This document shows positions 10,709-22,045 of a DNA stretch of 64,000 bases, piece after piece; position 1 is the first letter of the stretch; the number at the start of each line of letters is the position of its first letter. The position numbers were made by a program, and so were the translations under genes. Source of the DNA: Allodiplogaster sudhausi (Eukaryota; Nematoda; Chromadorea; Rhabditida; Diplogasteridae); the NCBI GenBank assembly GCA_945643635.1, contig CALZFC010000029.1:3012001-3076000 (forward strand). Reading direction: 5' to 3'. The notes below the pieces were generated by a model. That model was not told the origin of the DNA. It was given only the letters and a program-made list of their open reading frames with translations, and searched no databases.

Positions 10709-10736
10709 ATGCCTAACTCAATGAAAAAATTTTCAG
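10709..10736 (+). CDS. Putative first exon of the array gene
   Basis: ATGCCTAACTCAATG followed by AAAAAATTTTCAG then GTATAT. The encoded MPNSMKKFS ends with the same KKFS and the same donor as exon 4 of each unit, in the same phase (1), so it splices in frame to exon 1 of unit 1 at 11018. Sequence upstream of about 10723 does not match the unit, so this is the left edge of the amplification. The start codon is an inference. Confidence 0.5.
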
Positions 10737-19700: not shown

Positions 19701-22045
19701 GAGCTGAACCGCCAGTCACTCTGTATACATGTAATGTAATGTAATGATTTTAGTTCGCCCTTTCCTTTTCAGCGCTCGTACACGTTCAAATCCGACAAAA
19801 CCTTTGGCGGCTTTTATATGAACTGTGATGACGTCTTTAACCCGGAAAAGGGCTTTATAAGAGATGATGGTGGTATTATCATTGAGGCTTCGATCACCGT
19901 CAAGGATGTCATCGGCGTGAAAGGTAATTTGGAACATGCCTCGACAGATTTATTATTAAAGCTGCTTATTCTTTCTAGAACTTTCCTTTTCTTACCAGTT
20001 CTCGTGATGAAAGTTTGTTCTAATGTTGCAGACAAACCATTCTCGTGCCCTACTCCTCAGGACGAGCTGACGACTGAGAGAGCTAGAAGGAAAAAATTTT
20101 CAGGTATATTTTTCTGCCTTGTAGGAAACAGTTCTACACATGAGGTACATTTAAATGTTCTTGAGCTATTAGTCATTTTTAAGTATATTTAAAAATAAAT
20201 TTTTCTGGTAAAATTTTAAACATTTAAAATAAGAACTTCTTATATTGAAATAGTTAGCAATTTTTAAGTTTTTAATTACTAAAACATTTGCCCTCAATCA
20301 AGAATGTTTAAGAGTATGTGAATTAGGTAGTCTTTAAATTAAAATGAAAGGCTTTCTAGATGCCAACCCTGTTTCCTCTTGCAGAGCCCATGGCCAGTGA
20401 AAAGCTTCGTCTGTACGTGCCGAAGCTGGCCGAGCTGAAGGAGCAAGTCCAGTCGCCACCAATCTGGATTGCCGGTCTGCCTTGGTAAGTGTCTTTTGAA
20501 GAACTACACATGTCTATTTTACTCTATTAAAATTATCAGGCAGACCATTGCAGGTTCTTGAAGGTGCGTCATGATGAGAAGACATTGTATGTCTTCATCA
20601 ATTGCAACGAGGGATGCGAAGATACAAATTGGAGCTGCGACTGCACTGTAACCGTCACTCTTTTGGCGCAAAACGAAGATCAGAAGCCGTATTACATTAC
20701 GGTCCGTGACCCGTAGAGAGCATTGCATCAACATTATATTAGAGCTGAACCGCCAGTCACTCTGTATACATGTAATGTAATGTAATGATTTTAGTTCGCC
20801 CTTTCCTTTTCAGCGCTCGTACACGTTCAAATCCGACAAAACCTTTGGCGGCTTTTATATGAACTGTGATGACGTCTTTAACCCGGAAAAGGGCTTTATA
20901 AGAGATGATGGTGGTATTATCATTGAGGCTTCGATCACCGTCAAGGATGTCATTGGCGTGAAAGGTAATTTGGAACATGCCTCGACAGATTTATTATTAA
21001 AGCTGCTTATTCTTTCTAGAACTTTCCTTTTCTTACCAGTTCTCGTGATGAAAGTTTGTTCTAATGTTGCAGACAAACCATTCTCGTGCCCTACTCCTCA
21101 GGACGAGCTGACGACTGAGAGAGCTAGAAGGAAAAATTTTCAGGTATATTTTTCTGCCTTGTAGGAAACAGTTCTACACATGAGGTACATTTAAATGTTC
21201 TTGAGCTATTAGTCATTTTTAAGTATATTTAAAAATAAATTTTTCTGGTAAAATTTTAAACATTTAAAATAAGAACTTCTTATATTGAAATAGTTAGCAA
21301 TTTTTGAGTTTTTAATTACTAAAACATTTGCCCTCCATCAAGAATGTTTAAGAGTATGTGAATTAGGTAGTCTTTAAATTAAAATGAAAGGCTTTCTAGA
21401 TGCCAACCCTGTTTCCTCTTGCAGAGCCCATGGCCAGTGAAAAGCTTCGTCTGTACGTGCCGAAGCTGGCCGAGTTGAAGGAGCAAGTCCAGTCGCCACC
21501 AATCTGGATTGCCGGTCTGCCTTGGTAAGTGTCTTTTTTGAAGAAGAAAACATACATATCTATTTTACTCTTGCAAAATCAGCCGGCAGACCATTTCAGG
21601 TTCTTGGATGTACAATCTGAATGCTCAGAGCACACTAATTATGTAAAGAAATTGGCTGTCTTCATGCATTGCAACTCGGGAAGTAAAGATGCTAATTGGA
21701 GATGCGACTGTACCGTAACCTTCACTCTTTTAGCGCAAAAGGACGGTCATAAGCCGTATTCCTTGACGGTTCGTGAGCTTTTGAGATCCTTGCGTCAACA
21801 TTATATTAGAGCTGAACCATCAGACACTTTTTAATCGTATAATAATGTAATGTTGGGATTTTAGCTCGTCCTCTCTTTTTCAGTACTCGCATACGTACAA
21901 ATCCGATCAAGCTGTCAAAGGGTACTTGTCGTTTATGAGCTGGGATGATGTCCTCAACCGGAAAAAGGGCTTTATAAGAGATGATAGAGGAATTGTCATC
22001 GAGGCTTCGATCACCGTCAAGATTGTCATCGTGAAAGGTAATTAG
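10709..22045 (+). CDS. Tandem poly-MATH array: 11 USP7-like MATH/TRAF domain units
   Basis: A putative first exon (10709-10736, MPNSMKKFS, phase 1) is followed by ten near-identical units of 1040/1041 bp and a diverged eleventh. Each unit has four exons (100, 148, 151 and 72 coding bases; 471 in all, 157 codons). Exon 4 ends in phase 1 and the next exon 1 begins with two bases completing a codon, so units join in frame. The peptide (LKEQVQSPPIWIAGLPW; then CEDTNWSC; then NPEKGFIRDDGGIIIEA) follows the N-terminal MATH domain of USP7/HAUSP, which binds peptides of substrates such as p53 and MDM2. No ubiquitin-protease catalytic box was found after it. Units 2, 7 and 10 lose one A in a poly-A run of exon 4, breaking the frame, so the locus may be one pseudogenised long gene or four genes of 2, 5, 3 and 1 domains. 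Function beyond peptide binding is unknown. Confidence 0.75.
11018..12058 (+). CDS. MATH unit 1 (type A)
   Basis: Exons 11018-11117, 11187-11334, 11447-11597 and 11706-11777. This is a type A unit: Cys in TLCVF, Met in YYMT and His at the start of exon 3. Exon 4 has six A's and stays in phase to unit 2. The intron before exon 1 carries the G-type motif TTTTTGAGTTTTT. Exon 1 also holds an ATG in good context (cccATGGcc, 11023), a possible internal start. Confidence 0.8.
12059..13098 (+). CDS. MATH unit 2 (type B, frameshifted exon 4)
   Basis: Exons 12059-12158, 12228-12375, 12488-12638 and 12747-12817. Type B: Tyr (TLYVF), Ile (YYIT) and Arg opening exon 3. Exon 4 has five A's instead of six, so the unit is 1040 bp and splicing to unit 3 would shift the frame and stop at the TGA at 13150-13152. 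The intron that follows it is G-type. Confidence 0.75.
13099..14139 (+). CDS. MATH unit 3 (type A)
   Basis: Exons 13099-13198, 13268-13415, 13528-13678 and 13787-13858. Type A residues (C, M, H), frame intact into unit 4. Because unit 2 is frameshifted, this unit would need its own start; the in-frame ATG at 13104 is the obvious candidate. Confidence 0.8.
14140..15180 (+). CDS. MATH unit 4 (type B)
   Basis: Exons 14140-14239, 14309-14456, 14569-14719 and 14828-14899. Type B residues (Y, I, R), six A's in exon 4, in frame with unit 5. Confidence 0.8.
15181..16221 (+). CDS. MATH unit 5 (A/B chimera with private changes)
   Basis: Exons 15181-15280, 15350-15497, 15610-15760 and 15869-15940. Exon 2 is type B (Y, I) but exon 3 opens with the type A His, so it is a mosaic, consistent with gene conversion or unequal exchange. 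Private replacements: Arg to Leu in exon 2 (VLHDEK), Thr to Asn (DKNFGG) and Gly to Ser (PEKSFI) in exon 3. Confidence 0.8.
16222..17262 (+). CDS. MATH unit 6 (type A)
   Basis: Exons 16222-16321, 16391-16538, 16651-16801 and 16910-16981. Type A residues. Exon 4 reads AAACAATTTTCAG, a Lys to Gln change that keeps the frame. Confidence 0.8.
17263..18302 (+). CDS. MATH unit 7 (type B, frameshifted exon 4)
   Basis: Exons 17263-17362, 17432-17579, 17692-17842 and 17951-18021. Type B with a private Thr to Met in exon 3 (SYMFKS). It carries the same five-A deletion in exon 4 and the same G-type following intron as unit 2. Confidence 0.75.
18303..19343 (+). CDS. MATH unit 8 (type A)
   Basis: Exons 18303-18402, 18472-18619, 18732-18882 and 18991-19062. 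Type A, frame intact. Like units 3 and 11 it follows a frameshifted unit and would need its own start (ATG at 18308). Confidence 0.8.
19344..20384 (+). CDS. MATH unit 9 (type B)
   Basis: Exons 19344-19443, 19513-19660, 19773-19923 and 20032-20103. Type B, frame intact, with a private Leu to Gln in exon 1 (PKQAEL). Confidence 0.8.
20385..21424 (+). CDS. MATH unit 10 (type B, frameshifted exon 4)
   Basis: Exons 20385-20484, 20554-20701, 20814-20964 and 21073-21143. Type B residues with the five-A deletion and the G-type following intron, as in units 2 and 7. Confidence 0.75.
21425..22045 (+). CDS. MATH unit 11, diverged terminal unit with stop
   Basis: Exons 21425-21524, 21600-21768 and 21884-22045. 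Exon 1 is nearly identical to the array, but from the first intron onward the unit diverges and resembles the stand-alone copy at 22852. Its exon 2 is longer (169 bases) and encodes ECSEHTNYVKKLAVFMHC. Exon 3 ends VKGN then TAG at 22043-22045, with no exon 4. The unit therefore looks like the original 3' end of the gene, with the array grown upstream and the junction inside or just after exon 1. Confidence 0.8.

Follow-up and report, generated by a model that had tools for sequence, protein, structure and literature searches.

We propose that the tandem array of MATH units described here is the product of a very young amplification within a single gene of a fast-evolving cluster, and that its protein products carry a small number of MATH domains each, with eleven as the possible maximum; we assign this reading a probability of roughly 45%. 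The window, that is, the whole stretch of DNA that was analysed, is 64,000 nucleotides long (C29:3012001-3076000) and belongs to an assembly of 351.8 Mb in 382 contigs. The array is present in this assembly: from 11018 to 21424 it runs through ten head-to-tail units, each 1041 or 1040 bp long and 99.4-100% identical to unit 1 by blastn. A previous sequence-only reading had described ten units of four exons and 471 coding bases each, followed by a terminal eleventh unit with a stop. All ten units do contain four exons, separated by introns of 69, 112, and 108 bp, but the coding sum of 471 bases holds in seven of them and is 470 in units 2, 7, and 10. The eleventh unit is indeed a MATH sequence that ends in TAG, but it is a diverged chimera and not a copy of the ten. 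The features are the following.

10709..10736, + strand: exon 0 (ATG..TCAG, donor GTATAT), single copy; from its sequence, a putative coding start or 5' leader exon
10720..11017, + strand: partial first repeat copy, comprising the exon 0 tail and intron 0; ~99% identity to unit positions 743-1041
11018..12058, + strand: unit 1; exons 11018-11117, 11187-11334, 11447-11597, and 11706-11777 (471 nt)
12059..13098, + strand: unit 2, 1040 bp; exon 4 of 71 nt, a frameshift when chained
13099..14139, + strand: unit 3
14140..15180, + strand: unit 4
15181..16221, + strand: unit 5, with three private amino-acid changes
16222..17262, + strand: unit 6
17263..18302, + strand: unit 7, 1040 bp; exon 4 of 71 nt
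18303..19343, + strand: unit 8
19344..20384, + strand: unit 9
20385..21424, + strand: unit 10, 1040 bp; exon 4 of 71 nt
21425..22045, + strand: unit 11, chimeric diverged MATH; exons 21425-21524, 21600-21768, and 21884-22045; TAG at 22043-22045
22857..23475, + strand: separate diverged three-exon MATH gene, ending K-G-N-stop
27053..27130, + strand: weak match to the 3' part of the exon 4 of locus L017b (tblastn E 0.088, 46% identity; blastn 60% over 444 bp)

That the amplification is recent, as had been claimed, is borne out by the divergence among the ten units, which vary in 14 of 1041 columns and differ pairwise by 0.42% on average and at no more than seven positions. The first DNA search of the genome against itself omitted even the array in the window, perhaps owing to common words, and the absence of the array elsewhere was therefore examined with a 36-base exon-4 pattern. 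With up to three mismatches allowed, this pattern has 10 matches in the whole 351.8-Mb assembly, all of them inside the window, and the reversed pattern, used as a control, has none in the whole assembly.

The phase-1 joins between consecutive units are present. Exon 4 has the same phase at both ends (1-1), and exon 3 also joins the next exon 1 in frame, such that MATH modules could be chained in frame with or without exon 4. The single eleven-domain frame through exon 4 that had been proposed is not supported. Exon 4 ends in a run of six A in seven units and of five A in units 2, 7, and 10, where one A is deleted, and because of these three one-base deletions a chain read from exon 0 with exon 4 always kept meets a stop after 340 aa and two MATH domains. 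With exon 4 kept, translation from the ATG in exon 1 would yield five MATH domains if it began in unit 3 and three if it began in unit 8. Skipping exon 4 everywhere leaves a frame of 1482 aa with 11 MATH domains, and skipping it only in units 2, 7, and 10 leaves one of 1650 aa, again with 11; a full eleven-MATH product thus needs exon skipping because of the three frameshifts. The chained reading terminates at the stop at 22045. A poly-MATH product is possible on the strength of these frames, though not in the form first proposed.

The breakpoints suggest how the array may have originated. The repeat boundary lies at 10720, within exon 0, and the sequence farther upstream is not repeated. Because everything upstream of 10720 falls outside the repeat, the array most likely constitutes one transcription unit under one promoter. 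The ancestor would have been a three-exon MATH gene with an additional exon 4, resembling L017b at C29:3132808, which is the one other match found for exon 4 and its acceptor; there the exon is longer and is followed by more open exons. An ATG and donor like those of exon 0 were found at one other place, upstream of the MATH gene at L021. As exon 0 was not seen upstream of L017b and the exon-2 donor of L017b is shifted in position, L017b is not a pristine model of the ancestral gene. A tandem duplication between breakpoints inside exon 4 and inside exon 0 would have brought the first part of exon 4 and the exon 0 tail together in a chimeric exon of 72 nt (71 in three units), and unequal exchange would then have multiplied the repeat to ten units. 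The chimeric exon 4 of each unit has a good donor. Unit 11, in which an exon 4 was looked for and not found, differs from the array at one of 100 bases in exon 1. The remainder is diverged, with 79% identity to the array over 627 bp, and shows 89% identity over 544 bp to a nearby, broken copy of MATH at L017. Since its exon 1 matches the array and the remainder matches the L017 copy, we regard unit 11 as a recombinant. A derivation of exon 4 from the first exon of a BTB domain was considered because of a resemblance noticed by eye and was rejected, as its score was equalled by 398 of 5000 shuffles (1298 of 5000 for the first part; 202 of 500 for DNA).

The most serious alternative, although an unlikely one, is that every one of the ten units is a mini-gene of its own with a single MATH domain, which starts at the exon-1 ATG and ends by read-through past exon 3 or exon 4. 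An ATG of its own in exon 1 makes a separate protein start in each unit possible, and this ATG occurs at the same position, a few bases past a conserved acceptor, in 27 of the 39 family copies on a hand-made list, which is not a whole-genome set. Relatives at L033 are likewise three-exon copies spaced ~1.1 kb apart, and in all ten units one open frame extends from exon 3 through intron 3 into exon 4. However, the repeat contains no sequence upstream of 10720, hence no repeated promoter is evident, and the read-through tail would be unlike between units with five and with six A. Furthermore, the array, like L017b, no longer has a stop following exon 3. This loss is not special: among 29 distinct C29 and C1 contexts outside the array, 18 have a stop within four codons after exon 3 and 11 do not. 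We retain the single transcription unit as the preferred reading.

What such a gene may do is best approached through its family. The identification of the unit as a MATH domain is supported by Pfam (PF00917, 45.1 bits vs. a curated cut-off of 21.2). When a single unit was compared with the PDB, USP7 was the only match below E 1e-3 and accounted for 11 of the 13 hits up to E 1, the other two being antibody chains at E 0.4-0.5. A profile of 11 family members retrieved USP7 in 11 of 12 hits up to E 1 (3e-21 to 1e-19), with eL18 at E 0.43 as the twelfth and neither SPOP nor TRAF among them. USP7 is thus the nearest solved relative, in agreement with the earlier assignment by motif to the N-terminal MATH domain of USP7/HAUSP. 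The array family differs from USP7/HAUSP in other respects. The USP7-specific region PF12436 has two matches in this genome, on C26 and C9, each with a USP7-like MATH exon ~3 kb away, and none on C29. The USP7 fragment holds a single D-W pair, which we take to be residues 164-165. Both D164 and W165 are described as essential for binding of P/A/ExxS ligands in the excerpted text of PMC6203733. The pair occurs in none of 22 family sequences (nor in a smaller alignment of 11 of these 22 models); D164 alone is found in one of the 22 (L021a), and W165 in none. Given that the essential pair is missing from all 22, the proposal that the array product competes for USP7 ligands is unlikely to be correct. 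The better guess is that different, changing ligands are bound via the same groove.

USP7 as the direct parent of the array was also rejected, since USP7 is located elsewhere in the genome and MATH-only and MATH-BTB genes are the array's nearest relatives there. A DNA search of the genome with one unit returned at least 81 matches, with 39 of 98 candidates scored. Among the matches listed, those on C29 (35, at 2.956-3.251 Mb) and on C1 (26, at 477-577 kb) belong to three-exon MATH copies, and 20 lie on C103, C35, C242, and C131. In the paralogue models a GT directly follows exon 1 in 26 of 26, and in 24 of these an acceptor for exon 2 could be identified. At the loci on C103, C35, C242, and C131, four BTB exons are found in each of L001, L047, and L048 and three in L046. 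L001 encodes MATH and BTB (Pfam BTB, 1.3e-19); in the PDB its MATH part matches USP7 and its BTB part SPOP. Searched at E 0.01, the four L001 BTB exons matched nothing in 17 tiles of C29 (170 kb) and the window, with hits inside 11000-21425 left out, and none in L026-L045 and L049. The MATH-BTB loci L046-L048 carry additional MATH exons immediately upstream, which indicates that other parts of the family have also gained MATH copies with no accompanying BTB. The downstream exon 2 of L048 contains a stop, and in L046 the downstream MATH is matched by exon 1 only. Judged by sequence, the array has its relatives in this genome among MATH-only and MATH-BTB genes and not in a protease gene. A protein database search at E 0.001 returned no relative of the unit (10 candidates) or of L001 (1430 candidates). 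A viral origin was rejected, as the four pattern matches in a scan of viral contigs included no relative.

The proposed single transcription unit would be spliced to encode a string of diversified MATH domains, without BTB and without a protease. As its relatives suggest substrate recognition, we infer that this product probably binds in a multivalent manner or serves as a decoy for the ligands that MATH-BTB adaptors of its family recognise.

Comparison with a second contig bears on the distribution of the array. C1 is collinear with C29, at 89-96% identity in the stretches compared, and the USP7 stretches of C26 and C9 match each other at 94%; together these suggest that two haplotypes or sub-genomes are present in the assembly. 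Sequences that are 74 kb apart around the array on C29 (2960556-3034645) have only 1.7 kb between them on C1 (569642-571342). This C1 interval contains no array unit and the exon-4 pattern has no match anywhere on C1, hence the array is found on one of the two contigs in this assembly. The fullest version of our reading would be a gene present on one contig that encodes at most eleven USP7-type MATH domains, ten of them close to identical, without BTB or protease, in which alternative use of the symmetric 72/71-nt exon would set the number of domains joined, and in which the ligand groove and the number of units would change rapidly under selection, as expected of a fast-adapting multivalent binder or decoy. 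This combination of claims is doubtful as a whole.

There is some indication that protein sequence matters in the array. Substitutions among the units comprise nine nonsynonymous, one synonymous, and three noncoding changes (Fisher p 0.014; 373 nonsynonymous vs. 668 other sites). Pooled with six young pairs, which were selected for their youth and share some sequences, the counts are 116 nonsynonymous and 19 synonymous, giving p 0.014 if 78% nonsynonymous changes are expected and p 0.027 at 79%, the latter being closer to the young pairs' own values (0.786-0.794); taken one by one, none of the young pairs is significant (p 0.13-0.79). The excess of amino-acid-changing differences among young duplicates is thus no more than suggestive. 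The 223 family pairs have a median dN/dS of 0.68, with 6% of pairs above 1. This set kept 22 of 25 models, L036a, L036b, and L033b having been dropped because their models failed, and in seven models an incorrect start of exon 3 was trimmed manually, L033b having been among these before it was dropped. Of the ten units, u1, u2, and u5 alone entered the dN/dS and entropy sets. The entropy count kept 17 of the 22 sequences, omitting the near-identical u2, u5, L023a, L025, and L034, and is highest at residues 84-97, a segment picked after the columns had been viewed (1.81 bits, compared with 1.33 at residues 37-48 and 0.58-0.62 in three other segments). Residues 84-97 align with the USP7 segment containing D164-W165, and variability would accordingly appear to peak at the predicted ligand groove.

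These data also bear on a less probable explanation, that the array is copy-number noise subject to drift or a pseudogene array that makes no protein. Three of the ten units have a frameshift when chained, some neighbours are broken, such as L015 (a stop in exon 1) and L017a (most of exon 3 missing), and the collinear stretch of C1 lacks the array, all of which would fit this explanation. On the other hand, exons 1-3 are open and splice sites are intact in all ten units, and the lean toward amino-acid change, a modest signal, is not predicted by drift alone. We consider it improbable that the array is mere noise.

A more remote explanation is an assembly artefact with a wrong number or order of units. 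The units are 99.3-100% alike, and their types as judged by eye follow the order ABABB ABABB (10 of 210 orders by chance), as a false block duplication might give. Nevertheless, linked and private variants occur among the units, the two blocks differ from one another, and an array of ~11 kb would be within the reach of long reads; such an error is thus very unlikely. The shortened A run in particular coincides exactly with one intron variant in three of the ten units (chance 1 in 120), so random sequencing error is unlikely to account for it. This linkage also speaks against the eleven-domain protein exactly as first chained, with exon 4 kept in every unit, to which we give hardly any credence: its phases fit in seven of ten units, but as assembled it ends at the stop that follows the second MATH domain, and it would need the three shortened A runs to be errors.

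Comparison with known systems helps to place the preferred reading of a young poly-MATH gene. MATH-BTB genes are expanded in two parasitic wasps, and one passage of the same paper lists Nasonia vitripennis and Ostrinia furnacalis among species with an expansion (PMC12785250). As far as that excerpt goes, the likeness lies in a large MATH family with BTB partners, here represented by the BTB exons in L001 and L046-L048. In contrast, the array and its C29 and C1 relatives have no BTB exon in the stretches searched, and the amplification is intragenic. In Caenorhabditis elegans, excerpts of two studies describe MATH-BTB (BATH) and MATH genes as diversifying fast, with positive selection in the substrate-binding domain, and place MATH genes among those induced by intracellular pathogens (PMC4334554, PMC9762603). 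Fast diversification and, tentatively, selection in the substrate-binding domain, as described in those excerpts, are features shared with the array; its units differ from the C. elegans genes in being nearly identical, head to tail, and of fixed phases. Plant MATH-only proteins have two to four tandem MATH domains that are well diverged from one another, according to excerpts of PMC4923191 and PMC3664471. Like the array, these proteins as excerpted combine several MATH domains with no further recognised domain, whereas they reach at most four, diverged domains and the array could reach eleven, ten of them nearly identical.

If the array is one transcription unit, domain amplification has been caught at its birth, with breakpoints, phases, and the first amino-acid changes still readable, and the product would exceed by far the two to four domains given for plant MATH-only proteins in the same excerpts (PMC4923191, PMC3664471). 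Such a protein would belong to a family of degradation adaptors that, in nematode relatives, evolves fast and is responsive to pathogens. It would also exemplify the separation of substrate-binding modules from the BTB part.

Scans of the window for tRNA genes and for Rfam families returned no hits in either case. An AATAAA at 11868, ~90 bases into an inter-unit intron, could terminate transcripts early. Finally, the weak match at 27053..27130 is tentatively viewed as the displaced end of the ancestral exon 4.

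When the ten near-identical 1040/1041-bp MATH-domain units of the array are grouped into types by eye, their order along positions 11018-21424 is ABABB ABABB, a pattern expected by chance in 10 of 210 orders. This arrangement looks as if a single block of five units had been duplicated. Directly 5' of the array, a 379-bp GA-rich stretch is present in two tandem copies that are 97.9% alike (9531-10290).

The MATH clusters at 2.95-3.25 Mb of contig C29, which carries the array, and at 477-577 kb of C1, a contig without it, are collinear, with identities of 89-96%. An ATG is absent from 12 of the 39 exon-1 copies in our hand-made list; all 12 lie on C29 or C1, and several of them still have an acceptor and open exons. 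Three MATH-BTB loci on other contigs (L046, L047, and L048) contain additional MATH exons upstream, the tail of which joins flanking sequence resembling that preceding the first MATH, and they apparently represent a separate case of MATH duplication without the BTB. At a further locus, the MATH gene at L017:7502-9665 seems to have an 85-residue tail spread over three exons. A Pfam search with this tail returned no match; one piece of it is similar to exons in L011 and L017.

Other features were located in the window:

37492-37870, AAA ATPase exon (VCP/VPS4-like)
46660-46871, tandem 45-bp repeat, 4.7 copies, reading frame open on both strands

The AAA ATPase gene is another gene that was duplicated locally. 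Diverged relatives of its exon are found elsewhere on C29, and also on C1 and C124, another contig of the assembly. Close to the window end, inspection of the ORF list by eye revealed two pairs of near-repeats in opposite orientation (61231-61743 with 62532-63329, and 60098-60433 with 63623-63997).
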